A stretch of DNA of 64,000 nucleotides from Salinisphaera shabanensis E1L3A (lineage in GTDB: Bacteria; Pseudomonadota; Gammaproteobacteria; Nevskiales; Salinisphaeraceae), in the NCBI RefSeq assembly GCF_000215955.2, contig NZ_AFNV02000005.1, positions 62,001 to 126,000 on the forward strand, written 5' to 3'. A program made the translations under genes and the position numbers. The notes under the pieces are model-generated. The model saw only the letters and a list, made by a program, of their open reading frames with translations, searched no databases and was not told the origin of the DNA. This document shows, piece after piece, positions 5,439 through 28,034 of this stretch (positions are counted from its first letter, which is position 1; every line of letters starts with the position of its first letter).

Positions 5439-5526
5439 GCTGCGCCCCGACCGGGCTGAATCATTCAGCGCCCGGACGGTCCCAATCAACAGCGGGCCGT
5501 TCTGCGATCTATCGAGGTGCCGACGC

Positions 5527-5961
5527 ATGGAAACCAGCGATCTACGCAAAGCCGGACTCAAGGCGACACTGCCCCGCCTGAAGATCCTGGAAGTGCTGCA
5601 AAACAATCGAGAGGATCACCTCTCGGCCGAAGACGTCTATCGTCGGCTCATGGCCGAGGACGAGGACATCGGCCTGGCCACGATTTATCGCGTACTGTCC
5701 CAGTTCGAGGACGCGGGCTTGGTGATTCGCCACCATTTCGAGGACGGCCATGCCCTGTTCGAACTCGAGCAGGGCCCGCATGACCACCTGATCTGTGTGA
5801 AATGCGGCAAGATCGAGGAATTCTTCGATACCGAGATCCAGGAGCGCCAGCGCGACGTGGCCCAGAAGTCCGGCTTCGACCTCTCCAAGCACACGCTCGT
5901 GCTCTACGGCGAATGCCGCGCGGACAACTGCGAAAACGACACCAGCAAGAAGAGCTCGTAG
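5527..5961 (+). CDS. fur: Ferric uptake regulator
   Basis: The 144-residue protein has the Fur winged-helix N-terminal domain (KAGLKATLPRLKILEVL, then LATIYRVLSQFEDAGLV). The metal-binding dimerisation domain contains HHFEDGHALFEL and HDHLICVKCGKIEEF. A GAGGTG ribosome site lies just upstream. With Fe2+ it represses iron uptake genes; the siderophore-interacting reductase at 12.1 kb is a plausible target. Two further cysteines occur near the C-terminus (CRADNC). The gene is monocistronic and is followed by a hairpin. Confidence 0.95.
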   Translation: METSDLRKAGLKATLPRLKILEVLQNNREDHLSAEDVYRRLMAEDEDIGLATIYRVLSQFEDAGLVIRHHFEDGHALFELEQGPHDHLICVKCGKIEEFFDTEIQERQRDVAQKSGFDLSKHTLVLYGECRADNCENDTSKKSS

Positions 5962-6062
5962 TCACGACCGCCCGCGCATAGCGTGCGCTCGTATCGCGAT
6001 CTACCCTTGCATCGCGGGAGTTACGTCCGCAATACGTTAGAATCTGCAAAATTCTGAATAGC

Positions 6063-6089
6063 GAAAACGCGTCAAGCAGCCGCGTTTTC
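6063..6089. terminator. Hairpin between fur and sat
   Basis: Perfect 9-bp arms GAAAACGCG (6063-6071) and CGCGTTTTC (6081-6089) enclose a 9-base loop. The T-rich part lies within the stem and no long T run follows, so it may be a weak terminator for fur or a structured leader of sat. Confidence 0.45.
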
Positions 6090-6158
6090 TATTGCGCGTG
6101 GCACGCGTACCGAGCCACGCGATCTGTTTTGCCATTCGACAACGCAAGGCGCGACGAC

Positions 6159-7343
6159 ATGATCAAACCGCACGGTTCCGATACGCTCAACCCGCTGTAT
6201 GTGGCCGATGAGGCCGATCGCGAGCAACTCATGCAGGAAGCCCGCGAACTGCCGGCCATCACGGTGAGTTCGGCCGCCGCGGCCAATGCCGTGATGCTGG
6301 GCGCGGGCTATTTCAACCCGCTGACCGGCTTCATGAGCAAGGCCGACGCGCTATCCGTGGGCGAAAACCTGCGCACCGCTGACGGCCTGTTCTGGCCGGT
6401 GCCGGTGCTCAACCTCGTCGACGATATCGAGCCGATCAAAGGGGCGGCCCGTATCGCCCTGCGCGACCCGAACGTCGAGGGCAACCCGGTGATCGCGGTG
6501 CAGGATATCGAGGGCGTCGATGAATTCAGCGACGATGAGCTGAACACCCTGCTCGAGCAGATCTTCACCACGACCGACGACGAACACCCCGGCGTGGCGA
6601 CGTTCAAATCGCTCGGCCGTCATGTCATCCACGGGCCGATCCAGGTTCTGAACTTCAGCTATTTCGAGAAGGACTTCCCCGACACCTTCCGCACTGCGCA
6701 GTCGATTCGCGACGAGTTCGCCGAACGCGGTTGGGAAAAGGTCGTCGCCTTTCAGACGCGCAACCCCATGCACCGCGCGCATGAAGAGCTTTGCAAGATG
6801 GCCATGGAAGCCACCGGCGCCGACGGCATCCTGGTGCACATGCTGCTGGGCAAGCTCAAGCCGGGCGATATTCCGGCCAACGTGCGCGATGCCGCCATCC
6901 GTACGATGGTAGACCACTATTTCCCGAAGAATTCGGTGATGATCACCGGCTACGGCTTCGACATGCTTTATGCCGGCCCCCGAGAGGCCGTGCTGCATGC
7001 CGTATTCCGCCAGAACGCCGGCTGCTCCTATCTCATCGTCGGCCGCGACCATGCCGGCGTAGGCGATTATTTCGGCCCCTTCGATGCGCAAACGATCTTC
7101 GAGGAACGCGTACCTGACGACGCGCTGGATATCGAGATCTTCGCCGCCGACCACACCGCCTTTTCGAAAAAGCTCGGCAAGGTGGTGATGATGCGCGACG
7201 TGCCCGATCATACCAAGGAAGACTTCGTCATTCTGTCCGGCACCAAGGTGCGCGAAATGCTGGGCAACGGTATCGCCCCGCCAGAAGAGTTCTCGCGTCC
7301 CGAAGTGGCCGAGATTCTCATGCAGTACTACCAGAGCAAATAG
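6159..7343 (+). CDS. sat: Sulfate adenylyltransferase (ATP sulfurylase)
   Basis: The protein (394 residues from ATG 6159) is a single-chain ATP sulfurylase, which makes adenosine 5'-phosphosulfate from sulfate and ATP or runs the reverse reaction. Key motifs are QTRNPMHRAHEEL, with the HxxH nucleotide-binding signature, and GRDHAGVGDYFGPFDAQ. There is no C-terminal kinase domain. The ATG at 6159 has AAGGCG upstream and is preferred to an in-frame TTG at 6129. No cysD/cysN or apr genes are nearby, so assimilatory and dissimilatory roles cannot be separated. A strong terminator follows. Confidence 0.93.
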   Translation: MIKPHGSDTLNPLYVADEADREQLMQEARELPAITVSSAAAANAVMLGAGYFNPLTGFMSKADALSVGENLRTADGLFWPVPVLNLVDDIEPIKGAARIALRDPNVEGNPVIAVQDIEGVDEFSDDELNTLLEQIFTTTDDEHPGVATFKSLGRHVIHGPIQVLNFSYFEKDFPDTFRTAQSIRDEFAERGWEKVVAFQTRNPMHRAHEELCKMAMEATGADGILVHMLLGKLKPGDIPANVRDAAIRTMVDHYFPKNSVMITGYGFDMLYAGPREAVLHAVFRQNAGCSYLIVGRDHAGVGDYFGPFDAQTIFEERVPDDALDIEIFAADHTAFSKKLGKVVMMRDVPDHTKEDFVILSGTKVREMLGNGIAPPEEFSRPEVAEILMQYYQSK

Positions 7344-7372
7344 CTCGGCCGGCAGGTCACGCCTACATCAAG

Positions 7373-7404
7373 GCCCGGGCGCATGGCGCGACCCGGGCTT
7401 TTTT
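7373..7404 (+). terminator. Rho-independent terminator of sat
   Basis: Stem GCCCGGG (7373-7379) / CCCGGGC (7392-7398) is followed directly by six T residues, 30 bp after the sat stop codon. Confidence 0.88.
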
Positions 7405-7458
7405 ATACCCGCTGTTTGCCACGCCGACAGCACGTGCGGGCATCGAAATGACAGGGCG

Positions 7459-7671
7459 TTACCGAGCGGGATCTGCTTCGCCGTCAGGCGACGCCTGGCC
7501 GTCGGCGATCACTTCGGCCAGGTCGAGCCGTCGTATCGAACTGATGGCCATTTCCAGCGCGCCTTCACCGCATAACCCCGCGATCGCCGCCTCCTCATAG
7601 CCGGCCAGCGCCGCTTCTATGCAGGCCGCCCGAATGCGTTCGGCTTCATCGATGGGCCGCGCTTCGCTCAT
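7459..7671 (-). CDS. Small helical conserved hypothetical protein
   Basis: This predicted 70-residue acidic protein (MSEARPIDEAERIRAACIEA, then LCGEGALEMAISSIRRLDL) resembles short helical proteins found next to miscellaneous metabolic genes in pseudomonads and relatives, some of which are labelled acetyltransferase without evidence. It has no membrane segment or catalytic motif that I can recognise. The ATG at 7671 lies inside the 3' end of the DUF488 gene, overlapping by about 26 bases, so the two are probably co-translated. Function unknown. Confidence 0.6.
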   Translation of the reverse strand: MSEARPIDEAERIRAACIEAALAGYEEAAIAGLCGEGALEMAISSIRRLDLAEVIADGQASPDGEADPAR

Positions 7672-8020
7672 GTGCCCCCTCCAGCCAAGACTTGAGTACG
7701 ACCGCGTGATTGCACTCGGTATCACGGGCCGCGAAAAGCAGCGTTACGTCCTGGTCGGCGACGATCTCGCGTAGCGCCACGAGATCGTCATTGTCGGATG
7801 CGTCGAGTTCGGCGCGATAACAGTCGCAGAATTTCTTCCAGCGGTCGCGATCATGCCCGAACCAGCGCCGCAAATCGCTCGACGGGGCCACCGATTTGTA
7901 CCAGTCGTCCAAAGCCGCATCGGCCTTTTTTACGCCACGCGGCCACATGCCGTCGACCAGCACGCGCCGCCCGTCGTTATCGGCTACCGGATCGTAGATA
8001 CGCTTGAGTTGTATCGACAT
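7646..8020 (-). CDS. DUF488 family protein (YeaO-like)
   Basis: The 124-residue protein matches YeaO/DUF488: it begins IQLKRIYDP, followed by RVLVDGMWPRGVKK, and has LRRWFGHDRDRWKKFCDCYR in the middle. The ATG at 8020 has a GAGG ribosome site 6 bases upstream and is chosen over a TTG two codons earlier. Family members are small soluble proteins without a firmly established biochemical role. It overlaps the following small gene, suggesting a two-gene unit. Confidence 0.85.
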   Translation of the reverse strand: MSIQLKRIYDPVADNDGRRVLVDGMWPRGVKKADAALDDWYKSVAPSSDLRRWFGHDRDRWKKFCDCYRAELDASDNDDLVALREIVADQDVTLLFAARDTECNHAVVLKSWLEGAHERSAAHR

Positions 8021-8056
8021 AGCCAACCTCTGCCCGTTCTCTCCCGGGCACTGTCT

Positions 8057-9016
8057 TCAAGTGGCCACGCCGCAGTCCGAATCCATCGCACAGGTCATGG
8101 CGGTCTGACGGTCTTCCGGCTGCAGCGTGGTATGCGTGATCGAGAATCGTTCGGCCAACAGCGCCTGCAGACGCGGCAGAATCGTCTGCCAGTCGCTCAT
8201 CCGACCGATCTCGATATGCGCAGCCAAGGCGCGCTGGCTCGATGACAGACTCCAGATATGCAGATCGTGCACCGAATGCACGCCTTCGACGCCGGCGAGC
8301 TCGTCGCTGACTTTTGCTGCATCCACGCCCTTGGGCACGCCTTCCATGAGCACGTGGACCACCTCCTTAAGCAATCGCCACGCGGAAACCAGGATCAGCG
8401 CGCTCACCGCTAGTGACAGCAGCGGATCGATCGGCATCCAGCCAGTCAGAAGAATGACCGCGCCGGCCACGATCGCCGCAACGGAGCCGAGCAGATCCCC
8501 GAGCACATGAATCAGCGCGCCGCGTACGTTCATGGTCTGTTCGCCGCGCATGAGAATGGCGGCCACCACAATATTCATCACCAGACCGATGGTGGCGATC
8601 ACCATCACCGGCACGCCCGCGACCTCACGCGGTTCGGCAAAACGCTGTATCGCCGAAAAGGCAATCGCCACTACAACGACGATCATCAGCACGGCGTTGA
8701 TGAGCGCGCCCAGCACCTCGGCGCGCTGCAGACCGAAGGAATGCACCTTGGAGGCTGGCCGCTTGGCCATCCAGGCAGCAAGTGCGCCGATCGCCAGCGA
8801 CGAACTGTCGGTGAGCATATGTCCGGCGTCGGACATCAACGCCAGCGAGTCGGCCCACCAACCGCCGATGGCTTCGACAAACGCAAAGGCGAGTGTCAGA
8901 CAAAGCGAGAAGACGAGCGCCCGTCCCGTACCGCCATGGTGATGACCACCCAACCCATGATCGTGACTGTGATCATGATTGTGGTCAGCATGCGAATGAT
9001 CGTGCATATGGACCAT
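8057..9016 (-). CDS. Cation diffusion facilitator (CzcD/ZitB-type zinc exporter)
   Basis: The 319-residue inner-membrane antiporter begins with a histidine-rich cytosolic tail (HDHSHADHNHDHSHDH), has about six transmembrane helices, and ends in a soluble metal-binding domain. The helix-2 metal site SDAGHMLTD and the family segment SLALMSDAGHMLTDSSSLAI are clear. Such proteins export Zn2+ (also Co2+/Cd2+) against protons. The start codon lies 5 bases beyond the stop of an ArsR-type sensor and the AGGAG ribosome site is inside that gene, so they form an operon. Expression should rise when metal releases the sensor. Confidence 0.93.
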   Translation of the reverse strand: MVHMHDHSHADHNHDHSHDHGLGGHHHGGTGRALVFSLCLTLAFAFVEAIGGWWADSLALMSDAGHMLTDSSSLAIGALAAWMAKRPASKVHSFGLQRAEVLGALINAVLMIVVVVAIAFSAIQRFAEPREVAGVPVMVIATIGLVMNIVVAAILMRGEQTMNVRGALIHVLGDLLGSVAAIVAGAVILLTGWMPIDPLLSLAVSALILVSAWRLLKEVVHVLMEGVPKGVDAAKVSDELAGVEGVHSVHDLHIWSLSSSQRALAAHIEIGRMSDWQTILPRLQALLAERFSITHTTLQPEDRQTAMTCAMDSDCGVAT

Positions 9017-14346: not shown

Positions 14347-15093
14347 ATGCACGCCCATATCGTATTCGCCCATCCCGAGGCTCGATCGTTCAACGGCGCA
14401 CTTGCCGATATCGCCGAGGAAACGCTTGCCGCGCAAGGGATAACGGTTACCCGCTCGGACCTGTACGGCGAGCTCTTCGATACAGTCGAAGGGCCGGCTC
14501 ACTATGGCGAGCGGGCGGACGAGGCCTATTTCTCGGCGCTGGCCGAACAACGCCACGCCGGCAATGCGCGCACGCGCCCGGCCGACGTACAGCGCGAGAT
14601 CGATCGCCTGACCGCAGCCGATCTGGTCATTCTGCAATTCCCGTTGTGGTGGCATGCCCAGCCGGCCATCCTCAAGGGCTGGTTCGACCGCGTATTCGTC
14701 TACGGCGAACTTTATACCGGGCGTCGGCGCTACGACGAAGGCCATTTTCGTGGCAAACGCGCGTTGCTGTCCGTAACGACGGGCGGCCCGGCTGCCACGT
14801 TTTCGCCCTACGGGCGCGGCGGGCCAATCGAACGACTGCTCTGGCCTATCCACTACTCTTTGCACTACATGGGCTTCGACGTATTGCCGCCGTTCGTCGC
14901 CCACGGTATTCAGGGCGGCGGCATCGCCTATGAACAACGCGACGTGTTCGAACAGCATCTCGACGGCCTGAAACGGGGCTGGGCCGAGCGCCTCAACACG
15001 CTCGACTCGGCCCGACCGATCCCGTTCACCGGCTGGCAGGATTGGGACGACCACGGCGTACTACGCGCCGATCATCCGCTGCGCTGGGCCTAA
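14347..15093 (+). CDS. NAD(P)H:quinone oxidoreductase, flavodoxin-like fold (NQO/KefF-type)
   Basis: The 248-residue flavoprotein starts IVFAHPEARSFNGALADIAE and contains LVILQFPLWWHAQPAILKGW and FVYGELYTG, the hallmark of the NQO1/MdaB/KefF family, which carries out two-electron reduction of quinones with NAD(P)H and FAD/FMN. Start ATG 14347 matches the usual N-terminus. It is divergent from a LysR regulator, which suggests induction by a quinone or electrophile. Confidence 0.9.
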   Translation: MHAHIVFAHPEARSFNGALADIAEETLAAQGITVTRSDLYGELFDTVEGPAHYGERADEAYFSALAEQRHAGNARTRPADVQREIDRLTAADLVILQFPLWWHAQPAILKGWFDRVFVYGELYTGRRRYDEGHFRGKRALLSVTTGGPAATFSPYGRGGPIERLLWPIHYSLHYMGFDVLPPFVAHGIQGGGIAYEQRDVFEQHLDGLKRGWAERLNTLDSARPIPFTGWQDWDDHGVLRADHPLRWA

Positions 15094-15180
15094 GACAGTG
15101 ACGTAACCTCGGCCGAACGGATGCGTTCACCCGACGTTATCGGCGATAGTAGCGGCCTGCGACTTATCTCCAGGTAGACG

Positions 15181-16737
15181 ATGGCAAAACGCACACCCAC
15201 CGGCGGCGGCGATCTCGGCTTCGAAGCCGAGTTATTCCAGGCCGCCGACAAGCTGCGCAGCAACATGGAGCCCAGCGATTACAAGCACATCGTACTCGGG
15301 CTGATCTTCCTCAAGCATATTTCCGACGGCTTCATGGCCAAGCGCGCGGAACTGGAAGCCGATTATCCCGAAGAAGTCGAAGACGAAGACGCCTACCGCC
15401 AGGACAACGTGTTCTGGGTACCCAAGGCCGCACGCTGGCCGGCGCTTAAGGCCAACGCCAAGCAATCGAACATCGGCAAGCGCATCGACGATGCCATGCT
15501 CGAAATCGAGAAGGTCAATCCGTCGCTCAAGGGGGTACTGCCCAAGGACTATGCCCGCCCGGCGCTGGACCCGACCAATCTGGGCGAGCTGATCGACCTG
15601 ATCTCCGGCATCGGCTTCAAGACCGACGACGGCTCAAGCCGCGACGTGCTCGGGCGCGTGTATGAATACTTCCTCGCCGAGTTCGCCGGCGCGGAGGGCA
15701 AACGCGGCGGCGAGTTCTATACGCCGCGCTCGGTCGTACGCACCATGGTGGAAATGCTCGAACCCTACGAAGGGCGTGTTTACGACCCCTGCTGCGGCTC
15801 CGGCGGCATGTTCGTGCAATCCGAAAAATTCGTGGAAAACCACGGCGGGCGTTTAGGGGATATCGCCATCTACGGCCAGGAGTCCAACCACACCACGTGG
15901 CGGCTGTGCATGATGAACCTCGCCGTGCGCGGTATCGATGCCGACATTAAGTGGAACACGGAAGGCAGCTTCCACCGCGACGAACACCCGGACCTGCGCG
16001 CGCATACGATACTGGCCAACCCGCCCTTCAACGTCTCCGACTGGGGCGGCAAGCGCCTGCGCGAAGACCAACGCTGGCAGTACGGCACCCCGCCCGCCGG
16101 TAACGCCAACTTCGCCTGGTTGCAACATATTCTCCACCACTTGTCGCCCACCGGCACGGCCGGCGTGGTACTGGCCAACGGCTCCATGTCCTCCACCCAA
16201 AGCGGCGAAGGCCAGATTCGCCAAGCCATGGTCGAGGGCGACGTGGTCGACTGCCTTATCGCCATGCCCGGCCAGCTCTTCTACTCCACACAGATCCCGG
16301 TCTGTCTCTGGTTTCTGGCCAAGGACAAGGCCAACGGCCTGGCCGGCGATACGCGCCTGCGCGACCGACGCGGGGAAATTCTGTTCATCGACGCCCGCAA
16401 GCTCGGGCATATGGTCGATCGGACGCGGCGTGAGTTTTCGGACGAGGACATCGCGCGAATCGCCGATACGTATCACGCGTGGCGCGAAGGCAGAGGCTAC
16501 GAGGACACGCCGGGTTTTGCTTATTCAGCTAACCATGAGGAGGTCGCGCAACACGGCTATGTTTTGACGCCAGGGCGCTACGTGGGAGCCGAACAAACGG
16601 TGGACGACGATATGCCGTTTACTGAAAGAGTTGCGTCTTTAACAGCTAAACTCGATGAGCAATTTAGTGAAAGCGATAAATTAGCCAACGTTATTCGGAA
16701 AAGCATTTCCAGTCTTATCATCAAAGAGGAGGGCTAA
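15181..16737 (+). CDS. hsdM: Type I restriction-modification system, DNA methyltransferase subunit
   Basis: The 518-residue protein has an HsdM N-terminal helical domain ([20 protein letters not shown]) and an N6-adenine methyltransferase domain. The S-adenosylmethionine motif [10 protein letters not shown] is at about residues 202-211 and the catalytic NPPF at 280-283. It methylates adenine in the target chosen by HsdS. Its TAA stop overlaps the hsdS ATG as TAATG, so the two subunits are coupled. Codon use becomes AT-richer over the last ~150 bases, entering hsdS. First gene of the defence island. Confidence 0.96.
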
Positions 16738-18041
16738 TGAGACCCCTCCGGCTTGGCAATTACTGTTGGAAAATTGGCAGCGGTGCGACACCTCGCGGTG
16801 GTAGAGACACTTATTTAGCGAGCGGACCCTACTCGTTGATACGCAGTCAAAACGTATACAACGATCGATTCTCTAAAGATGGACTCGTTTATATTTCGGA
16901 GCATCAAGCTGCAGCACTGGCTAACGTCAACGTTGAATGTGGCGACGTGTTGGTGAATATAACTGGCGATAGCGTAGCGCGCGCCTGCCAAGTTAATTCG
17001 GAAGTCTTGCCGGCGCGAGTAAACCAGCATGTCGCAATTATTCGGCCTGACCCCGAAGTAATTGATCCCGGTTATTTACGCTACTGGCTCATAACCGAAC
17101 AGACACAGAATCATTTACTAGCTTTAGCGTCCGCAGGTGCGACTCGTCCGGCGCTCACGAAAGGAATGCTCGAAACGCTTTCGTTCCCAGACGTTAATAT
17201 CGCTTCACAACGAGCGATTGCCCGTACTCTCGCCGCGCTCGACAATAAGATCGAGCTAAACCGCCAGATGAACGAAACGCTGGAAGCGAGCGCACGGGCG
17301 CTGTTTCGCGACTGGTTCGTCGACTTCGGGCCGACGAAAGCCAAGATGGCCGGTGACGCGCCCTATCTTGCCCCTGACCTGTGGTCCCTTTTCCCTCACC
17401 GGCTCGACGACAATGGGGTGCCAGAAGGTTGGGCCACCGGAGCCCTCAAAGACACCACAGAGTTGCAAAGTGGCTTCGCGTTTAAAAGTAAAGACTGGCG
17501 AGACAGTGGCATACCAGTAATAAAAATTGGCTCGGTAAAACCACAAATGGTAGACATGTCACAAGTCAGTTATGTTGCGAAAGAGATAGCAGAAGCAAGT
17601 TCGCGCTTCGAGCTTTGTCCGGGAGATATGGTTGTAGGAATGACGGGATACGTCGGCGAGACTGGCCGCATTCCTCCTACTTCACACCGCCCCTTGCTCA
17701 ATCAGCGCGTGGGGCGATTTAAGCCCAAAAAACATTTTTCTAGCTATGTTTTTGCTTGCGTCAGAGGAGAACAATTCAAGAACTTCGCCATATCTAAGGC
17801 GCATGGGTCAGCGCAACCTAACGTAAGCGCCAAAAGCCTGTTGGAATGCCCAGTGATCATCCCATCTGAAGGTGTTTTAAAAGACTTCGATGCATTAACG
17901 TCAAAATATTGGCAGCTGTCGCTAGCCAACATGGCTAACAACCACACACTCGCCCAAACTCGCGACCTTCTTCTCCCCAAACTCATCTCCGGCGAAATCC
18001 GCGTCGGCGATGCCGAACAGGCCGTAAGTAAAGCCGTATGA
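16737..18041 (+). CDS. hsdS: Type I restriction-modification system, specificity subunit
   Basis: The 434-residue protein has two target-recognition domains separated and followed by conserved helical repeats. The repeats are marked by RAIARTLAALDNKIELNRQM and LEASARALFRDWFVDFGPTK in the centre and a shorter version (TLAQTRDLLLPKLISGEIRV) at the end. The two recognition domains, about 16.74-17.15 kb and 17.43-17.9 kb, are clearly more AT-rich than the flanking helices, the usual sign of domain exchange. The stop overlaps the next gene as ATGA. The recognised sequence cannot be read from the protein. Confidence 0.95.
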   Translation: MRPLRLGNYCWKIGSGATPRGGRDTYLASGPYSLIRSQNVYNDRFSKDGLVYISEHQAAALANVNVECGDVLVNITGDSVARACQVNSEVLPARVNQHVAIIRPDPEVIDPGYLRYWLITEQTQNHLLALASAGATRPALTKGMLETLSFPDVNIASQRAIARTLAALDNKIELNRQMNETLEASARALFRDWFVDFGPTKAKMAGDAPYLAPDLWSLFPHRLDDNGVPEGWATGALKDTTELQSGFAFKSKDWRDSGIPVIKIGSVKPQMVDMSQVSYVAKEIAEASSRFELCPGDMVVGMTGYVGETGRIPPTSHRPLLNQRVGRFKPKKHFSSYVFACVRGEQFKNFAISKAHGSAQPNVSAKSLLECPVIIPSEGVLKDFDALTSKYWQLSLANMANNHTLAQTRDLLLPKLISGEIRVGDAEQAVSKAV

Positions 18042-19177
18042 ATCGAGCACCCGTGCAACCCGAACTGCTGATCTGGGCGCGTGAGCGTGCGGGGATGGCG
18101 TCGGCTGATCTGGCGCATCGCTTTCCAAGGATTGGCGAATGGGAAGCCGGCGAAGTCGCGCCGACACTCAAGCAGTTGCAGTCCTTCGCGAACGCGGTGC
18201 ATGTGCCGATCGGCTATCTGTTCCTGCCGAAGCCACCGGAAGAGGCACTGCCGATTCCGGACTTTCGTACGATGGATGGCGCGGGTGTTCAACGCCCCAG
18301 CCCGGACCTTCTGGACGTGATCTACAGTTGTCAGGAGCGCCAGGGCTGGTATCGCGAGTATGCGCGCGCCCACCGGTTGCCGGACCTCGGTTTCGTCGGC
18401 AGTGCGAGTACGGACGATGCGCCGGACACCGTTGCGGCCACCATCGCCGCGACGCTTGGCGTCGACGTTGCGGCACGTGCGGCCTGCCGGAACTGGGAAG
18501 AAGCCCGTCGGCAGATGATCGCCCAGGCCGAAGAGGCTGGCGTACTGGTGATGGTCAGCGGCGTGGTGCTATCCAACAACAACCGCAAGCTCGACCCGGG
18601 AGAATTCCGTGGCTTTGCCCTGGCCGATACGAGGGCACCGCTGGTGTTCATCAACGGCGCGGATAGCAAATCCGCTCAGATGTTCACACTCGCCCACGAA
18701 CTGGCGCATCTCTGGCTGGGCGCAACGGCCGTGTCCGACGCAGGGGCCGCGCCCGTGCCGAATGCCCGGCGGGAAGAAGTCTGGTGCAACGCCGTGGCCG
18801 CCGAACTGCTGGTACCGCTCGCCGCAATCGAAAGCGACCTAACCACCGACGAGGACTTGCCCGGGCTCACCGCACGACTGACGCGCAAGTACAAGGTGAG
18901 CACGCTCGTCATTCTGCGCCGCCTGCTGGATGCGGAGTGGCTCAGCCGTGACGAGTTCGCCCGTGCCTGGGCCGCGGAGCGTGCTCGCCTTCGGCAGTTG
19001 GCCGAGCGCAGTGCGAGTGACGGCGGCAATTTCTACTACACCACGCTCACGCGTGTGAGCCGCCGCTTCGCTCGTGCGCTGGTCGAAAGCACGCTGGAAG
19101 GCCAGACGCTGTATCGAGACGCGTACCGCATGCTGGGCTCGCATAATGCTGCGATATTTGAGCGACCCACGCAGTAA
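18038..19177 (+). CDS. XRE-family HTH plus ImmA/IrrE metallopeptidase
   Basis: The 379-residue protein has an N-terminal Cro/CI-type helix-turn-helix (about residues 10-62, IWARERAGMASADLAHRFP) and a zinc metallopeptidase domain with HELAH at 220-224 in FTLAHELAHLWLG. This matches ImmA/IrrE proteases, which cleave repressors or antitoxins. It overlaps hsdS by four bases and lies inside the restriction operon, so it may tune restriction or destroy a partner protein. No classic ImmR repressor is beside it; the fused HTH may serve that role. The function here is inference. Confidence 0.88.
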   Translation: MNRAPVQPELLIWARERAGMASADLAHRFPRIGEWEAGEVAPTLKQLQSFANAVHVPIGYLFLPKPPEEALPIPDFRTMDGAGVQRPSPDLLDVIYSCQERQGWYREYARAHRLPDLGFVGSASTDDAPDTVAATIAATLGVDVAARAACRNWEEARRQMIAQAEEAGVLVMVSGVVLSNNNRKLDPGEFRGFALADTRAPLVFINGADSKSAQMFTLAHELAHLWLGATAVSDAGAAPVPNARREEVWCNAVAAELLVPLAAIESDLTTDEDLPGLTARLTRKYKVSTLVILRRLLDAEWLSRDEFARAWAAERARLRQLAERSASDGGNFYYTTLTRVSRRFARALVESTLEGQTLYRDAYRMLGSHNAAIFERPTQ

Positions 19178-19258
19178 ACGATCAGTTATACGGGCTCCGG
19201 CGAAGAGTACCTACGACTATATTTCGATATTAAATTAAGGCTTCGAGGGGAACGCGGG

Positions 19259-21022
19259 ATGAGCGATTTGAAGACATGCTTCAAACGCGTCGATTACGAC
19301 CTATCGAGTTTGTTGCATTTCATCGATGTCGGCGATATCGGCCTGCCCGATATTCAGCGACCATTTGTATGGAAAAACGCAAAAGTCCGCGATCTATTCG
19401 ACTCGATGTATCGAGGCTTCCCGGTGGGCTATCTTCTGTTCTGGGAAAACGTCGCCCAGAACGGCTCGAAACAGATCGGCACGGATAATAAGCAACGCGA
19501 GGTACCTGCGCGTCTCATCGTCGATGGCCAGCAACGGCTGACTTCACTGTATGCCGTGTTCCGTGGAAAAACCGTACTTGATGCCAATTACGTGGAACGA
19601 CAGATCGAAATTGCGTTTCGTCCACGCGACGGAAAGTTCGATGTCGCAGACGCTGCAATTCGTCGTGACCCGGAATGGATTCCAAACATTTCGGATTTAT
19701 GGTGCTCAGGTGCGTCTAGCTGGCGAATGGTCAATAATTTCATCGCTAAACTCGAGGAGAAAACCGCTCTCTCAGAGGAAGACGAAGAGCGTATTGCGCA
19801 TAACCTAGACCGACTTTTTGACTTACAGAAGTACCCGTTTACAGCCCTTGAGATCGCGCAGTCGGTCGACGAGGAACAGGTCGCCGATATATTCGTACGC
19901 ATCAACAGTGAAGGGGTAACGCTCAATCAGGCCGACTTCATCCTGACGCTTCTATCCGTTTTCTGGGATGAAGGTCGCGCGCAGCTTGAGCGCTTCTGTA
20001 GAGACGCGAGGGTACCCTCCAAAGGTTGGGCGGCCTCGCCGTACAATCATTTCCTCGAACCGGATCCGGATCAGCTACTCCGCGTTGCGGTAGCACTCGC
20101 TTTCAATCGCGGTCGACTGAAAAGCGTCTATCAGATCCTGCGCGGCAAGGACCCCGAGACAAACGAATATGACGCCGAGCGCCGCACCCAGCAATTCGAG
20201 CGCCTTAAGGTAGCGCAAGAGCAGGTGCTCGATATCACCCACTGGCATCAGTTCTTCAAAGCGCTTATTGGCGCAGGGTTCCGTAGCGGAGAATTGGTGT
20301 CTTCAAACAACGCACTGCTTTTTGCTTACGCGTTTTATCTCATCGGAAGGGTTCGGTTCGATATTTCCGAGCACTCCTTACAAAAAGCGATCGGGCGTTG
20401 GTTCTTTTTCTCGACGCTGACTGGCCGCTACACGAGTTCACCGGAAACCGTTATGGATGGCGACCTGGCTCGAATTCGGAGTTTGCAAACGGGCGACGCG
20501 TTCGTCAGTTGGCTTGACTCAGAGATGGCGAGCGTCCTCACCAACGATTTTTGGCAAATCACATTGCCAACAGAGTTTGATAGCTCATCAGCGCGCAACC
20601 CGCAGCTATTCGCATTCTTCGCCGCACAGAGCAGACTCGGCGCGCCGGCATTATTCTCGGACCGAAGCGTAGCCGATATGCTCGATCCGACAGTAAAAGC
20701 GAAGAAAAAAGCTCTGGAGCGCCACCATCTCTTTCCTAAAGCCTGGCTAGAAGCACAAGGTGTTGTTGATCAGCGAACGCGTAATCAGATGGCTAACTAT
20801 GCGCTGGTTGAATGGCCCGACAACATCGATATCAGCAATAAGGCACCCGATGTTTATGTGCCCGAGATCCGGTCTCGGTTCGACGAAAATGACTGGCAAC
20901 GCATGCTGTATCTCCACGCCCTTCCGCATGGTTGGGAAAACATGGCATACGACCAATTTCTTGATAAGCGGCGCGAGGCCATGGCGCAAATCGTGCGAGA
21001 AGGATTTGAGAAACTCAGCTAA
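19259..21022 (+). CDS. DUF262 domain protein with C-terminal HNH-like motif (GmrSD-like)
   Basis: The 587-residue protein starts with a DUF262 (ParB/sulfiredoxin-like) domain. The core [20 protein letters not shown] is followed by [14 protein letters not shown], with DGQQR at 89-93, a motif linked to NTP hydrolysis in GmrS/DndB-type proteins. Near the end is RHHLFPKAW (His489-His490), with a later asparagine-containing segment, similar to the DUF1524/HNH nuclease end of GmrSD and BrxU. An AT-rich 81-bp gap precedes it, which may hold its own promoter. It overlaps hsdR as TAATG. It is probably a second, modification-dependent nuclease or a restriction accessory factor. Confidence 0.85.
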
Positions 21023-24000
21023 TGACTGGACTCTCCGAATCCCACGTCGAAGAAGCCGCGCTCGAATGGCTAGAGGCGCTGGGCTGGACAGTCACTGCCG
21101 GCATCGACGCCGCACCGGATGGCAACGCACCGCTGCGCGCCGCCTATGTGGACGTGATTCTGGAAGATCGCCTGCGTGCGGCGATCGCCCGATTGAACCC
21201 GCACTTGCCGGCCGAACCGCGCGACGAGGCATTGCGGCGTGTACTGGCCAGCGAAACGCCGGCACTCGTCGAGGAGAACCGGCGGCTGCATAAATATCTC
21301 GTGGACGGCGTTCCGGTGGAATTTCACGATGGCGAATCGGTGCGTGGCGATTCGGTTGCGCTCGCCGATTTCGACGCGATCGAGAACAACGACTGGTCGG
21401 CGGTCAACCAGTTTACGGTGGTCGAGAACGGGCATACGCGCCGGCCGGATATCGTGCTGTTCGTCAACGGTCTCCCGCTGGGCGTGGTCGAGCTGAAAAA
21501 CCCCGGCAGCGAAAATGCCACGCTGCATTCGGCCTATAACCAGGTGCAAAACTACAAGGCACAAATTCCCTCGCTGTTTCGCACCAATGCGCTGCTGGTG
21601 ACCTCGGATGGCATCAAGGCACGGGTGGGCTCGCTCACGGCGGATGAAGAACGCTTCATGCCCTGGCGTTCGACCGATGGCGACACCATCGCACCCGCCG
21701 GCGATCCGCAGCTGGAGACTCTGTTAAACGGCGTATTCGATCGCGCCACACTGCTGCGCTTAATACGCGATTTCACCGTCTTCGCCAACAACGGGCGCGA
21801 TATCGCCAAGATCGTAGCTGGTTATCATCAATTCTATGCCGCACAGAACGCGCTCGCGGCAACGCTGCATGCCCTGCCCTATGCCGGCGCCCGAGCCTCG
21901 AGCACGACATCGGCCGTGGCCGAAGACCCGCGCCAATACGGCCTGAAAAGCGCTCGGGATCATAGCGCGGGCGACAAACGCATTGGCGTGATCTGGCATA
22001 CGCAGGGTTCGGGCAAGAGCCTGCTCATGGCGTTCTACGCAGGCTTGCTGGTGCGCGAGCCAAGGCTCGAAAATCCCACCATCGTCGTGCTGACCGATCG
22101 CAACGATCTGGACGACCAGCTTTTCGGCACCTTTGCCAGTTGTCGCGACCTGATCCGCCAGACGCCGGTGCAGGCCGAAAGCCGCGACGACCTGCGCGCC
22201 CAGCTTGATCGCGCGTCAGGCGGGGTGATCTTCACCACGATTCAGAAGTTCGCGGCCACGGACGAAGACCACGCCGCGTCGGTCAGTGAACGCGAGAACA
22301 TTGTGGTGATCGCCGACGAGGCGCATCGCTCCCAGTACGGCTTCAAGGCGCGTATCGACAAGAATACGGGCCAACTCAGCTATGGCCACGCGAAGTATCT
22401 GCGCGATGCGTTGCCCAACGCCTCGTTCATCGGCTTTACCGGCACGCCAATCGAACAGGACGACGTCAACACGCCGGCCGTGTTCGGCCATTACGTGGAT
22501 ATCTACGACATCAGCCGTGCGGTCGAAGACGGCGCCACGGTGCCGATCTATTACGAAAGCCGACTGGCGCGCATTGAGCTATCCGACGAGGCGCTGCCCG
22601 AAATCGACAGCGAAATCGACGCGCTGACCGAAGACGAAGACGCCACTGAACAGGAAAAACTCAAGGCGCGCTGGGCGGCCACCGAGCGACTGGTGGGCTC
22701 GAAGAAGCGGCTGGCGATGGTGGCTGCCGATCTGGTCGAACATCTGGAACGCCGTATCGAAGCGCTGGACGGCCGGGCGATGGCGATCTGCATGAGCCGA
22801 CGCATTTGTGTGGCGCTCTACGACGAAATTATCGCGCAACGGCCGAACTGGCATTCGCAGGATGATGCCGCGGGTGCCGTGAAGATCGTGATGACCGGCA
22901 GCGCCTCGGACCCGGAAAGCTGGCAGCCGCATATCGGCGGCAAAGCCCGCCGTGACGCCTTGGCAAAACGAGCCAAGGCGCCGGACGACCCGCTCAAACT
23001 CGTAATCGTTTGTGACATGTGGCTGACCGGTTTCGACGCCCCGCCGATGCACACCCTGTATATCGACAAACCCATGCGCGGGCATGGGTTGATGCAGGCC
23101 ATTGCACGCGTGAACCGTGTTTTCCGGGACAAGGAAGCCGGGCTTGTGGTGGACTACATCGGCATCGCCCAGAACCTGAAAGCCGCGCTCGGCGTTTATT
23201 CGCCGTCCGACCAGGCCCAGACCGGCATCGACAAAAAATTGGCCATCCGGCTGATGCTGGAGAAGTTCGACATCGTGCAATCCATGTTCGATGGCTTCGA
23301 TTGCACGCCAGGTGTATCGGGGACGCCGGGCCAGCGCCTGAAATGTCTGGCGAACGCGATTCAGTGGATACTCGAACGCCAGCATGCCGAGGCCCAGCGC
23401 CAGGAAACGGATGACGCCAAAAAAGCTGCGCGAAGACGTTTTCAGGACGCAGTGCTTGCACTGAGTAAGGCGTTCGCATTGGCCGCTGCGAGCGACGAGG
23501 CCAGGGCGATACGCGACGAAGTGGCGTCCTACCAGACTGTACGCGCCGCATTGGTCAAAAGTAGCGCGCGGAACATTTCGAAGCGCGAGCGCGAGTTCGC
23601 GGTGCAGCAACTTATCGACCGCGCCGTGGTATCGACCGATATCGTGGATATCCTCAAAGCCGCGGGGATGAAAAGTCCGGATATTTCCATTCTTTCGGAC
23701 GAGTTTTTGGCCGAGATCAAGGACAGCCAGCGCCCCAATCTCGCTCTGGAAGCGCTGAAAAAACTGCTCAACGATCGTATCCGTGCCCGCTCGCAGGCGC
23801 ATATGGTGGAAAGCCGCAAATATTCCGAACGGCTGGCCGATGCAATTGCCCGCTATCACGCCAATGCGATCAGCACGCTCGAGGTCATTCAGGAGCTGAT
23901 TGATCTCGCGAAGGACATGCAGGCGCGAATATTGGCCGGCGAGCAGGAAGGGCTGTCCTCCGAAGAAATTGCGTTCTATCGCGCCTTGGCCGAAAACGAG

Positions 24001-24234
24001 AGCGCGGTGGATGTAATGGGCGATGCCAACCTCAAGGTGATTGCGGCAGAGCTGGTGAACCAACTGCGCGCGAACGCGACCGTGGACTGGGCGCACCGTG
24101 AATCGGCGCGAGCGCGCATGCGTGTGCTCGTCAAACGCACCTTGCGCAGATATGGTTACCCCCCCGATCTCCAAGACGCTGCAGTGCGTACAGTCATCGA
24201 ACAGGCGGAGCGGCTTGCCGCTGGATGGCAATAG
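21022..24234 (+). CDS. hsdR: Type I restriction-modification system, restriction subunit
   Basis: The 1070-residue protein has the order expected of HsdR. An N-terminal nuclease domain has D143 and E157-L-K159 (RPDIVLF, then VVELKNPGS). A superfamily 2 translocase follows with Walker A TQGSGKS (327-333), DEAH box (432-435) and FTGTP (472-476), then a helical C-terminal region. The enzyme moves DNA and cuts it far from unmethylated sites. The start overlaps the DUF262 stop (TAATG), so translation of restriction depends on that gene. No frameshift is visible. Confidence 0.96.
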
Positions 24235-24327
24235 CCTCGGCAAATATAGCCTGGGACCGTGGGTCTTCATTGTAGTCAGCTTTGCATCGCGGCGAGCTCT
24301 GCTTGCGAGGTCAATAAATTATCGACT

Positions 24328-24362
24328 ATATTCGTAATTCGCGAATCGCGAATTACGAATAT
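24328..24362. promoter_or_regulatory. Large palindrome over the start codon of the winged-helix gene
   Basis: Arms of 16 bp (24328-24343 and 24347-24362) are perfect complements around a 3-base centre and take in the first two bases of the ATG at 24361. Internally it contains repeated ATTCGCGAAT-like elements, so it could bind more than one dimer. An autoregulatory operator for the adjacent winged-helix protein is likely, as in many toxin-antitoxin loci. As RNA it would also form a hairpin hiding the start. Confidence 0.75.
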
Positions 24363-24888
24363 GATATTAAAACCACAAGATGTTTTGATCACGCTCAAGC
24401 TGGTCGCCTCGGGCAAAGCCATCCAATGGCGTTTCAACGATCTCGCAATCGAACTGGATATGAGCGTGTCCGAGACCCACGCGGGCGTGAAGCGCGCTCA
24501 ACGGGCTGGCTTGGTACACGTTTTTGACGGTCGACTGCAGGTCAGCCTTCGTGCGCTTGAGGAATTTCTCCTACACGGTTTGCGCTATGTATTCGTGCCA
24601 GACCGCGGCGAAATAACACGCGGGCTGCCGACCGCGCACGCCGCACGGCCGATCGCCTCGCACGTCGTGACAAATGAAGAACCGCCGCCCGTATGGCCCT
24701 CTAGCGAGGGTCCCGTGCGTGGCTTGGCCTTCTCCCCGCTATACAAGTCTGCGCCGCAGGCGGCGCTTCGGGACGCAACACTTTACGAATTACTGGTGAT
24801 CGTCGATACGCTGCGCGGTGGGCGCGCGCGCGAACGAAAGATCGCCGCCTCCGAATTGAGCCGGCGCCTGGCCGACTACGAGCGATAA
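24361..24888 (+). CDS. Winged-helix protein, probable regulator/antitoxin of a nucleotidyltransferase pair
   Basis: The 175-residue protein begins LKPQDVLITLKLVASG and continues DLAIELDMSVSETHAGVKRA then GLVHVFDGRLQVSLRALEEF, which reads as a winged helix-turn-helix. The C-terminal half has no motif I can name. The ATG at 24361 lies in a 35-bp palindrome. The nucleotidyltransferase gene begins one base after its stop. By analogy with AbiEi/AbiEii-type pairs it is probably the DNA-binding antitoxin or autorepressor. It is not similar enough by eye to AbiEi to give that name. Confidence 0.7.
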   Translation: MILKPQDVLITLKLVASGKAIQWRFNDLAIELDMSVSETHAGVKRAQRAGLVHVFDGRLQVSLRALEEFLLHGLRYVFVPDRGEITRGLPTAHAARPIASHVVTNEEPPPVWPSSEGPVRGLAFSPLYKSAPQAALRDATLYELLVIVDTLRGGRARERKIAASELSRRLADYER

Positions 24889-24889
24889 C

Positions 24890-25594
24890 ATGCATCCCAA
24901 CCGACGTATCCTTGAAGAAACCGTCCTGCATCTTGGCCCTTTGGCCGACGACATGGTTTTCCTCGGCGGTTGTGCGACCAATCTTCTAATCACCGATCCA
25001 GCTGCGGCGGACGTACGCCAAACTTTCGATGTCGATGTGATTACCGAAGTGGCGGGCTACCTGGAGTACCACTCATTGGGTGAAAAGCTTCGCGTGCAGG
25101 GCTTTCGCGAAGATCCCGGCGACGGCGAGACCGCAGTCATATGCCGTTGGCGGCGTGGCCCGCTAATCCTTGATGTCATGCCCACCGACGAACAGGTTTT
25201 AGGCTTCGGCAACCAATGGTATGCACCAGCTGCTCACGCCGCGATGCCCTATGCGCTGACGCCGGATCGCACAATACGGCTTATCGCACCTGCTCATTTC
25301 CTGGCAACCAAACTGGAAGCATTTGATGGACGCGGCGAGGGCGATTTCCTGGCAAGCCACGATATCGAGGATATTGTGTCTGTGCTCGACGGCCGGTCAA
25401 CACTACCTACGGAAGTCGCGACCGCCGATCTGTCTCTTCGCCGCTACCTAGCCGAGCGCTTCTACGCGCTCCTCGAAACGCCGGACTTCATCGCGGCAAC
25501 AGCCGGGCATTTACCACCCGATTCCACGAACCAAGAACGCGTAGCGCTTGTCATCCAGCGTATGCGCGATCTAGTGGAGGCGGGGAACGCGTAA
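24890..25594 (+). CDS. Nucleotidyltransferase-fold protein (AbiEii/MNT-like), probable toxin
   Basis: The 234-residue protein has the nucleotidyltransferase core: GG at 26-27 (FLGGCATNLL), the DxD pair D47/D49 in FDVDVITEV, and a third acidic residue D95 in LILDVMPTD. It continues with the helical segment LIAPAHFLATKLEAFDGRGE and DIEDIVSVLDGR typical of AbiEii-like enzymes, some of which add nucleotides to tRNA or proteins and so arrest growth. It is cotranscribed with the winged-helix gene, 1 bp apart. The activity and target are inferred. Confidence 0.75.
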   Translation: MHPNRRILEETVLHLGPLADDMVFLGGCATNLLITDPAAADVRQTFDVDVITEVAGYLEYHSLGEKLRVQGFREDPGDGETAVICRWRRGPLILDVMPTDEQVLGFGNQWYAPAAHAAMPYALTPDRTIRLIAPAHFLATKLEAFDGRGEGDFLASHDIEDIVSVLDGRSTLPTEVATADLSLRRYLAERFYALLETPDFIAATAGHLPPDSTNQERVALVIQRMRDLVEAGNA

Positions 25595-25687
25595 TGGCCA
25601 TTCCGTGGCGACAACATACGCTTGAAGCTTTACCGGCAGACGACGTCCTCGACGCCAGGCCTCCACGGTGCTAGCCGCCCCCACCCT

Positions 25688-25714
25688 AAAAACCGCCCCG
25701 GCGAACCGGGGCGG
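25688..25714 (-). terminator. Rho-independent terminator of metE
   Basis: Stem CCGCCCCGG (25693-25701) / CCGGGGCGG (25706-25714) with a CGAA loop on the plus strand. Read on the minus strand it is followed by a T run (25692-25688). It lies about 45 bp past the metE stop. The rest of the 25595-25760 gap shows no gene. Confidence 0.85.
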
Positions 25715-25760
25715 GGGCCACTACGGCTGACCAAGGCCGCAGCGACGGGGAAAATCTTAT

Positions 25761-28034
25761 TCAGGCGGCCTTGGCGCGCAGTTCGCGGGCGGCATCGACC
25801 ATATGCTCGAGCGCGGGCCGCACTTCGGCCCAGCCGCGGGTCTTGAGGCCGCAATCGGGGTTCACCCAGATACGCTCGGGCGGTAGCACTTCGGTCGCTT
25901 TTTCCAGCAGCGCGATCATCTCGGCCTTGGCCGGCACGCGCGGGCTGTGAATGTCGTACACGCCGGGGCCGATCTCGTTCGGGTACTGGAATTTCACGAA
26001 GGCATCGAGCAGCTCCATCTGCGAGCGCGAGGTTTCGATCGAAATACAGTCGGCGTCCATCGCCGCGATCGCCTCGATGATGTCGTTGAACTCCGAATAG
26101 CACATATGGGTATGCACCTGGGTGTCGTCGGCGACCCCGCCTGCGGTCAGGCGAAAGCTCGCGCTCGCCCAGTCCAGATACTCGGCCCAGTCGGAGCGGC
26201 GTAGCGGCAGGCCTTCACGAAAAGCGGCCTCGTCGACCTGGATGGCGGCCAGTCCGGCGGCTTCCAGGTCGCAGACTTCGTCGCGAATGGCCAGGGCCAC
26301 CTGTTTGACCGTTTCGGATCGCGGCTGGTCGTCGCGCACGAACGCCCACTGCACCATGGTGACCGGGCCGGTGAGCATGCCTTTCATGGGTTTGTCGGTG
26401 AGCGACTGGGCATATTGCGACCATTTCACGGTCATGGGTTCGGGCCGCGACACATCCCCGAAGATGATCGGCGGCTTCACATAGCGCGAGCCATAGCTTT
26501 GTACCCAGCCGAACTTGGTGAAGGCATAGCCGGCGAGCTTTTCGCCGAAATATTCCACCATGTCGTTACGCTCGAATTCGCCGTGCACGAGCATGTCGAA
26601 CCCCATGGCCTCCTGCATTTGCACGGCCTCGGCGATCTGCTTTTTGAGAAAGGCATCGTATTGGGCATCCGTCAGATCACCGCGTTTGTGGGCCGCGCGC
26701 TGTTTGCGCACTTCGGCGGTCTGTGGAAACGAGCCGATCGTGGTGGTCGGAAAAGCCGGCAGGTCGAGCTTGGCCTGCTGCTTCGTGGCCCGTTCGGGAT
26801 AGGCGGAAAAACGTTTGTAGTCGGCCTCACTCACGCCGGACACCCGACTTTTGACCGCGCTGTCGTGAATACGCGCGGAGTTGGCGCGATCGGCCATCGC
26901 AGCGCCATTGGCGGCCAGCATTTCCTTGTCGAGGTCGTTGTCCATGGCCCGCGCCAGGAACACGATTTCGTCGAGCTTTTCTTCCGCAAAGGCCAGCCAG
27001 TTAAGAAACTCGTCGTCGAGCTTGCGTTCGCTGCGCAGCGTGACCGGGCAGTGCAGCAGGGAGCAACTCGGGGCTACGATCAAACGTTCGCTGCCCAGCT
27101 CGCCCAGCACGGGTTGCAGCGTGTCGATCGCCCGTGTGAGATCGGTTTTCCAGATATTACGGCCGTCGACGATGCCGACCGAGAGCTGCTTGTCGTCGGA
27201 CAAACGCGTTGCCACCGCCTCGATTTCTTCGCGAGCGCGTACGCCATCGATATGCAGGGCGGCGACCGGCAGCGAAGTAAACAGCTCACGGTTGTCGGCC
27301 AGCGCACCGAAATAGTTGGCCACCATGATCTTGATGCCCCGCACACCGGCCAGGGCGTCGTAGGCCTTGCGAATGACTTCGCGTTGGACGTCGTCCAGAT
27401 CCAGCGAGAATATCGGCTCGTCGATCTGCAGCCATTCGGCACCCTGCGCGGCTAGCCGTTCGGCGATCTGGACATAAACCTTAATCAGCTCGTCGGCCAG
27501 ATCGAACTTGTTCAAATCCGAGCCGTCTGTGACCTTGCCGAGGGTCAGATACGTCCCCGGACCCACGATCACCGGCTTGGTGATAATCCCCTGGGCCTTG
27601 GCTTCTTCGAACTCGTCGAAGATTTTCGTGCCGACCAGCGCGAACGCCGTGTCGCGCGTGAATTCCGGCACGATGTAGTGGTAGTTGGTATCGAACCACT
27701 TGGTCATTTCGCAGGCGATGGCTGTATCGGTGCCGCGGGCCATGTCGAAGGCCACATCGATGTTCATGTCGCCGCCGTTCCAGCCGAAGCGTTCGGGCAC
27801 GTTGCCAATCAGGCAGGACAGCCCCAGCACCTGATCGTAGAAAGAGAAATCGTTCGACGGGATCAAGTCGATGCCGGCGGCCTGCTGCTTGGCCCAGTTG
27901 GCGCGACGCAGCTCGGCCCCGGTGGCTTCCAGCCCGGCGTAATCCAGATCGCCTTTCCAGTAGGCCTCGGTGGCCTTCTTGAGTTCGCGGCGTTCGCCGA
28001 TACGCGGGAAACCGAGGTTCTGGGAAATCGTCAT
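25761..28034 (-). CDS. metE: Cobalamin-independent methionine synthase
   Basis: The 757-residue protein is a full-length MetE, which transfers the methyl group of methyltetrahydropteroyl-triglutamate to homocysteine. The N-terminus [20 protein letters not shown], the zinc-binding [10 protein letters not shown] and the late cysteine in [11 protein letters not shown] are present. A GGAG ribosome site lies 6 bases before the ATG. It is divergent from metR, the classic arrangement in which MetR with homocysteine activates metE. Confidence 0.97.

Follow-up and report, generated by a model that had tools for sequence, protein, structure and literature searches.

In this study, we analysed a five-gene operon with the order hsdM-hsdS-immA-DUF262-hsdR, which lies in a 64,000-nucleotide stretch of the Salinisphaera shabanensis E1L3A genome (contig NZ_AFNV02000005.1, positions 62,001 to 126,000; hereafter the window, to whose numbering all coordinates refer). 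We consider it likely, with a probability of about three in four, that this is a type I restriction-modification operon which was acquired horizontally and in which a type IV nuclease and an orphan ImmA antitoxin are embedded, and that this ImmA protein is not a regulator of HsdR or of the DUF262 protein. A preliminary description of the same DNA had proposed a composite defence system in which the DUF262 nuclease backs up the type I enzyme and the ImmA protease controls one of the two.

All five genes share one direction (Table 1), and hsdM, hsdS and hsdR are all present, as expected of a type I restriction-modification system. The coordinates and families of the five open reading frames (ORFs) in the preliminary description agree with Pfam and PADLOC, and the gene overlaps on which it had based a coordinated unit are all real, with one base shared by hsdM and hsdS (at 16737), four bases (ATGA) by hsdS and immA (18038-18041), and one base by the DUF262 gene and hsdR (at 21022). 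The sole gap within the operon is the 81 bp between the immA stop at 19177 and the DUF262 start at 19259. A promoter and terminator scan of 15000-25700 found 3 and 10, respectively, against 3.9 and 11.4 expected.

The operon and the gene pair downstream of it are inserted between genes that are close neighbours elsewhere in the genus. Homology of the window to empty sites runs up to 15088 and starts again at 25761 (G171 and G450) or at about 25690 (G447). At the empty site of the same-genus genomes G171 and G450, the upstream oxidoreductase gene and metE are 66 and 77 bp apart, and MetE is 91-92% identical. Eight other genomes of the genus have a match to the oxidoreductase, and six of them hold both genes 66-757 bp apart, the two genes being on different contigs in the remaining two (G446 and G456). 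ImmA and DUF262 each match only one of the 14 genus genomes, the window's own (thresholds 1e-40 and 1e-100). As the closest relatives found are from sphingomonads, we infer that the operon came by horizontal transfer. No exact words of 8-20 bases are shared between the ends of the island (15041-15200 compared with 25581-25790).

The ImmA protein is a member of an antitoxin family, as indicated by its Protein Data Bank (PDB) relative (9vzy_A), its PADLOC match (RmrA), an HEXXH motif at residues 220-224 and an FR motif at residues 76-77, both of which are conserved. Entry 9vzy is the VapB52:VapC52 complex deposited by the VapBC52 study (PMC13273310), whereas RmrA is described as the antitoxin of RosmerTA (PMC10440598). 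The window protein aligns with VapB52 along residues 6-350, that is, over the N-terminal domain, the M78 protease, the FR motif and the start of the C-terminal domain. The helix-turn-helix (HTH) fusion ascribed to ImmA in the preliminary description is secure in its M78 part, but at the N-terminus no Pfam HTH model matches at E 0.001; weak XRE-like matches are found instead, to the C.Csp231I controller (E 0.042) and, in Foldseek, to 4jcx (probability 1.00 but E 0.34). On account of these weak matches and of the homology to 9vzy, deposited as an HTH cro/C1-type protein, an XRE-like fold of this terminus seems plausible. A serine stands at the aligned position of the VapB52 switch cysteine. It is not special to the window, since the cysteine is also absent there in the other aligned rows shown, toxin-bearing ones included.

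According to the VapBC52 study (PMC13273310), toxin binding by VapB52 depends critically on its N-terminal domain, the C-terminal domain occludes the toxin active site, and the antitoxin cleaves itself when triggered by single-stranded DNA, a step proposed to release the tRNase. In such an intact pair the antitoxin would hold the PIN-type tRNase until the M78 protease, meeting single-stranded DNA, cuts off its own toxin-binding N-terminal domain. By likeness to VapB52, toxin neutralisation and self-cleavage triggered by single-stranded DNA are putative functions of the window ImmA.

To place the window protein among its kin, we gathered ImmA relatives from 21 of 369 genomes of the window's class (E 1e-30) and 7 of 85 genomes of its order (E 1e-40), the own genome being counted in both, and from 7 of 397 genomes of the family of Qipengyuania (E 1e-60), together with the best 5 of 61 plasmid records, one DUF262 locus (L016) and 8 viral contigs. 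Thirty-nine relatives outside the viral set were judged, with longer flanks and with three near-duplicates (L092-L094) included; L068 (G209), which has a 108-aa DUF4411 match 150 bp downstream of ImmA, and L076/L077 (G371, 31-33% identity) stand outside the 39. A gene for a PIN-type DUF4411 protein lies directly downstream on the same strand in 38 of the 39 (35 of the 36 distinct ones), being full length in 37 and a 74-aa stub in L123, and it overlaps immA by 1 or 4 bases in 33 of the 38. DUF4411 also accompanies ImmA in all eight viral contigs, and both proteins match entry 9vzy. Given this neighbourhood and the solved VapBC52 complex of the same kind, ImmA and DUF4411 most likely form an antitoxin-toxin pair. 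Among the best 5 of the 61 plasmid records, relatives at 69-71% identity are carried, with the toxin gene, by two conjugative sphingomonad plasmids. The sole relative of the 39 without DUF4411 is L119 (G212), whose genome also has none; at about 4129-8273 of that locus, the toxinless ImmA stands behind hsdM-hsdS and a DarTG-like pair of DarT and macro-domain genes.

The 81-bp gap of the window operon sits exactly where 38 of the 39 relatives hold DUF4411, and a toxin gene would not fit into it. Neither blastn nor local alignment (best scores 26-28, against shuffle means of 29-30) detected a remnant of DUF4411 in the immA-DUF262 junction. A DUF4411 gene elsewhere in the genome was also considered and rejected, as none was found on any contig while all three known carrier genomes used as a control were positive. 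No toxin gene adjoins immA in the window; the genome-wide search concerned DUF4411, and other toxin families elsewhere were not sought. As the genome assembly is a draft in 41 contigs, one could suspect that the toxin gene was missed in assembly or sequencing. We consider this extremely unlikely, because a plausible ribosome-binding site of the DUF262 gene directly follows the gap, DUF4411 is missing from every contig, and the tail of the antitoxin is altered too. After residue 367 this tail departs from the relatives (2/12 identities) and is six codons shorter than in the closest of them, which would fit either a deletion junction or rapid drift with an early stop, two origins that 2/12 identities do not separate.

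In an ImmA tree of 31 rows, the window lies inside a clade whose other six rows are all toxin-bearing (support 100/99 and 98/94), and thus loss of the toxin in this lineage would be the simplest account. For the tree, and for the conserved-column test given below, the near-duplicates L092-L094 and split genes of <360 aa (L104 and L117) were removed, and the tree was also built without the four distant rows L121-L124. In general, a toxin gene is safely dispensable only as long as the cognate antitoxin is kept. With the toxin gene gone from this genome, the suicide arm would be disarmed, and the remaining ImmA would be an orphan sensor or antitoxin, most likely vestigial or serving as immunity against incoming ImmA-DUF4411 elements. 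It is possible that the DUF262 protein took over the role of the toxin.

The DUF262 protein itself is predicted by family, sequence and fold to be a GmrSD/BrxU-like (type IV) nuclease, a likeness that the preliminary description had already recognised. It carries Q33R34, DGQQR (89-93) and F212xxxN216, corresponding to the QR, DGQQR and FxxxN motifs named for the GmrSD family (PMC11411939), and H489/H490, N509 and N513 in its C-terminal part. Across 33 aligned rows (window included), Q33, R34, D89-R93, F212 and N216 as well as N509 and N513 do not vary, and H489/H490 are almost invariant. A sequence search of the PDB returned BrxU (7p9k, 2e-10) as the only convincing relative, the other 27 matches being antibody chains at E 0.07-1. 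Likewise, the predicted fold (mean predicted local distance difference test score, pLDDT, 85) matches BrxU alone below E 0.001 (two entries; E 2e-12, probability 1.00), with a template-modelling (TM) score of only 0.38, a low value that may reflect domain orientation. Among the PADLOC models HEC-05 matches best, and the TgvAB paper treats HEC-05 and BrxU as the same (PMC11411939). We expect that the type I enzyme would restrict unmodified DNA and that the DUF262 protein probably cuts phage DNA with modified bases, thereby complementing it. The operon has one DUF262 gene, and its protein, used as a query, found a single match in the window's own genome, a search that distant DUF262 proteins could escape.

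DUF262 genes of this kind recur in the same place. A search returned 46 loci, 45 of them with a DUF262 ORF (L046, without one by the model used, was left out). In 14 of these 45 the gene stands between hsdS and hsdR, more often than chance would give, and in 4 it has a partial or different hsd context; the other 27 have no hsd gene detected by the window-based models, and contig ends truncate some of these loci. On a 40-row tree, the 19 hsd-linked rows are clustered, requiring 6 changes, and none of 500 shuffles needed so few. L001, L002 and L009 form a group with the window there, at a Shimodaira-Hasegawa-like approximate likelihood ratio test (SH-aLRT) support of 100. One genome of the window's order (G419) matches DUF262, at contig coordinates identical to those of L007, from Sinimarinibacterium (Nevskiaceae); no DUF262 relative was found in the viral contigs.

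Several observations weigh against an orphan antitoxin beside a type IV nuclease. Pfam DUF1524 has no match at the nuclease end of the DUF262 protein. L119 is likewise an ImmA gene without DUF4411, so that toxinless forms may be maintained, and as no remnant of the toxin gene is left, its loss is read from kin and not from a scar. Outside its tail, moreover, the window ImmA departs at 1 of 90 conserved columns (K31R; a second departure lies in the tail), against 0-10 in the other 30 non-distant rows. Conservation of its body thus equals that in toxin-bearing relatives, which argues against long neglect. The ratio of nonsynonymous to synonymous substitution (omega) is 0.10-0.19 between the window and its relatives (6 of 9 pairs computable), slightly above the 0.04-0.15 among the relatives, and gives no clear signal of relaxed selection because synonymous sites are near saturation. 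Either the toxin was lost recently, or the orphan ImmA is still selected for some task. One such task would be that of an anti-addiction factor neutralising DUF4411 toxins from plasmids and other hsd operons. The toxin-bearing relatives on the two sphingomonad plasmids would fit this, as would the conserved body with its N-terminal part matching the toxin-binding domain of VapB52. We nevertheless regard it as unlikely, since the last C-terminal segment, whose VapB52 counterpart domain occludes the toxin active site, is altered and shortened, which may weaken neutralisation, and since at about 70% identity the fit to foreign toxins may be lost.

The orphan antitoxin reading also accords with what else occupies the interval between hsdS and hsdR, which would serve as a cargo slot of the acquired type I operon. 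Of the 39 ImmA relatives, 17 have hsd genes no more than 9 kb away. In the 11 relatives with an hsdS called at most 3 kb upstream, ImmA overlaps hsdS by 4 bases in 6 and by 1 base in 1, and lies 1.5-1.9 kb away in 4. In the scanned loci, other genes in this interval or following hsdS encode Fic, RhuM-Fic, Abi_C, Abi_2, Schlafen-AlbA, DUF6932, and DarT with a macro-domain protein. Three contigs filed as viral (L125-L127) belong to the window's hsd lineage (HsdM 73-75%, ImmA 70-71% and HsdR 56-70% identical, the last by stretch) and have the order hsdM-hsdS-ImmA-DUF4411-third gene-hsdR, the third gene being of a 245-aa type and, in L126, the only one scanned, Abi_C. The hsdR of L125 is in two frames. 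L001, L002 and L009 have the order hsdM-hsdS-C5-DUF262-hsdR (HsdM 83-84% and HsdR 76-77% identical to the window), and their HsdM, DUF262 and HsdR are closer to the window than the counterparts in L125-L127. C5 (8588-8980) is a conserved 130-aa protein encoded between hsdS and DUF262, with no family match (L001 scanned). From these two orders, the window looks like a mosaic of both; the hsdS-hsdR site is called a potential recombination hotspot in the RptR paper (PMC12255303). The order hsdM-hsdS-ImmA-DUF262-hsdR without a toxin gene was found in none of the other loci examined. A crowded slot was seen in L016 (5853-11886), which holds DUF6932, an unknown gene, ImmA, DUF4411, DUF262 and RhuM-Fic.

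These comparisons bear directly on the claim that the HTH-ImmA protease regulates HsdR or DUF262 by cleaving a repressor or the nuclease after attack, all within one composite system. The four-base overlap of hsdS and immA, the intact HEXXH motif in a well-conserved body, and the description of VapB52 and CapP as DNA-sensing proteases in defence (PMC13273310) would all be in line with it. However, ImmA occurs in 1 of the 45 DUF262 loci (some cut by contig ends), or 1 of the 14 with the hsdS-hsdR interval in view, and there, in L016, it comes with its own toxin gene; ImmA as a conserved partner of DUF262 was rejected on this count. It is also absent from L001, L002 and L009, the nearest hsd-DUF262 relatives, whereas the other inner gene is not missing from related hsd loci. 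In addition, the ImmA family pairs with DUF4411 and is homologous to a solved antitoxin:toxin complex, and inverted repeats of at least 8 bases are found neither before hsdM nor in the immA-DUF262 gap. Beyond the neighbourhood, nothing ties ImmA to HsdR or DUF262. We thus find control by ImmA unsupported and quite improbable, while the second nuclease as a back-up, the other half of the composite system, remains plausible in view of its family, its recurrent position and the TgvAB precedent. It is very unlikely, too, that ImmA was rewired after toxin loss, so that it would still sense single-stranded DNA from restriction or phage replication and its protease would activate or release DUF262 (or HsdR); if true, an antitoxin would have been turned into a DNA-damage switch for restriction. 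The sequence does not by itself separate dead weight, anti-addiction immunity and rewiring of ImmA.

The combination of type I and type IV enzymes is already published, and the operon is a variation on known defence clusters and not a new protease-controlled system. In RloF of Campylobacter jejuni, as described in PMC4619093, a DUF262 gene lies between hsdS and hsdR as in the window, but the passages on RloF mention no ImmA partner. TgvAB of Vibrio cholerae VPI-2 is reported to consist of GmrSD-family (DUF262) genes that lie within a type I operon, at a position like that of RloF, and that defend against phages with modified DNA (PMC11411939). TgvAB is stated to need two DUF262 proteins, whereas the window has one, in a single-protein form closer to BrxU, together with an antitoxin gene. 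BrxU/HEC-05 (PDB 7p9k) is the closest match in sequence, fold and PADLOC model, but BrxU is described as working with BREX and HEC-05 as embedded in Hma clusters, in contrast to the type I operon of the window. For the ImmA gene, the homologous antitoxin is that of VapBC52 from Mycobacterium tuberculosis as presented in PMC13273310; unlike it, the window has no DUF4411 toxin gene, a serine for the switch cysteine, an altered tail and a location in an hsd operon. RosmerTA is described as pairing an ImmA-protease antitoxin with a variety of toxins, some of the associated ones being PIN-like (PMC10440598), while the window ImmA has no adjacent toxin gene. Toxin-antitoxin cargo between hsdS and hsdR is also reported for DarTG2 in the type I operon of the RptR island (PMC12255303), there as a complete pair of a different family with an RptR repressor, in contrast to the orphan antitoxin here.

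Among the papers listed in searches of one open-access library, preprints excluded, we found no report of ImmA-DUF4411 in hsdS-hsdR intervals or of a toxinless VapB52-like gene in an hsd operon. Our data imply that, besides type IV nucleases, these intervals also harbour ImmA-DUF4411 toxin-antitoxin modules of the VapBC52 kind, as in the relatives near hsd genes and the three viral contigs with the module in the slot. This suggests a link in which restriction makes DNA ends and single strands, upon which a DNA-sensing protease would release a suicide toxin, and the window would be a natural disarmed case of it. As a caution, a protease gene found inside a defence operon may be the one remaining half of a toxin-antitoxin pair.

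Table 1 Features of the inserted block and of the operon within it (window coordinates).
Feature	Coordinates	Strand	Evidence
Inserted block (hsd operon and downstream gene pair), roughly 10.6 kb	approx. 15089..25690		Flank homology to empty sites
hsdM, type I DNA methyltransferase, 518 aa	15181..16737	+	Pfam HsdM_N, N6_Mtase (1.7e-107)
hsdS, specificity subunit, 434 aa	16737..18041	+	Pfam Methylase_S, two stretches (3.9e-17); PADLOC Specificity_I 9.3e-112
immA, ImmA/IrrE (M78) protein of the VapB52/RosmerTA-antitoxin kind, 379 aa	18038..19177	+	Peptidase_M78 7.2e-15; PADLOC RmrA 4.9e-18; PDB 9vzy_A 3e-25
immA-DUF262 spacer, 81 bp, no DUF4411 remnant detectable	19178..19258	+	
DUF262 (GmrSD/BrxU-like) nuclease by family, 587 aa	19259..21022	+	Pfam GmrSD_N 1.5e-31; PADLOC HEC-05 1.9e-37; BrxU 7p9k by sequence and fold
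hsdR, type I restriction subunit, 1070 aa	21022..24234	+	Pfam HSDR_N, SWI2_SNF2, T1RH-like_C
PDC-M21A-like gene, phage-defence candidate	24361..24888	+	PADLOC PDC-M21A 3.2e-37 (scanned from 24352)
PDC-M21B-like gene, adjoins the PDC-M21A-like gene	24890..25594	+	PADLOC PDC-M21B 1.8e-67

Downstream of hsdR, the inserted block ends with the PDC-M21A/B-like pair, which is followed by metE on the opposite strand. The start of the PDC-M21A-like gene at 24361 was chosen by us, the listed ORF starting at 24259. Directly before this likely start is a perfect inverted repeat (24328-24362) with 17-base arms and one base between them, which is possibly an operator for the gene pair.

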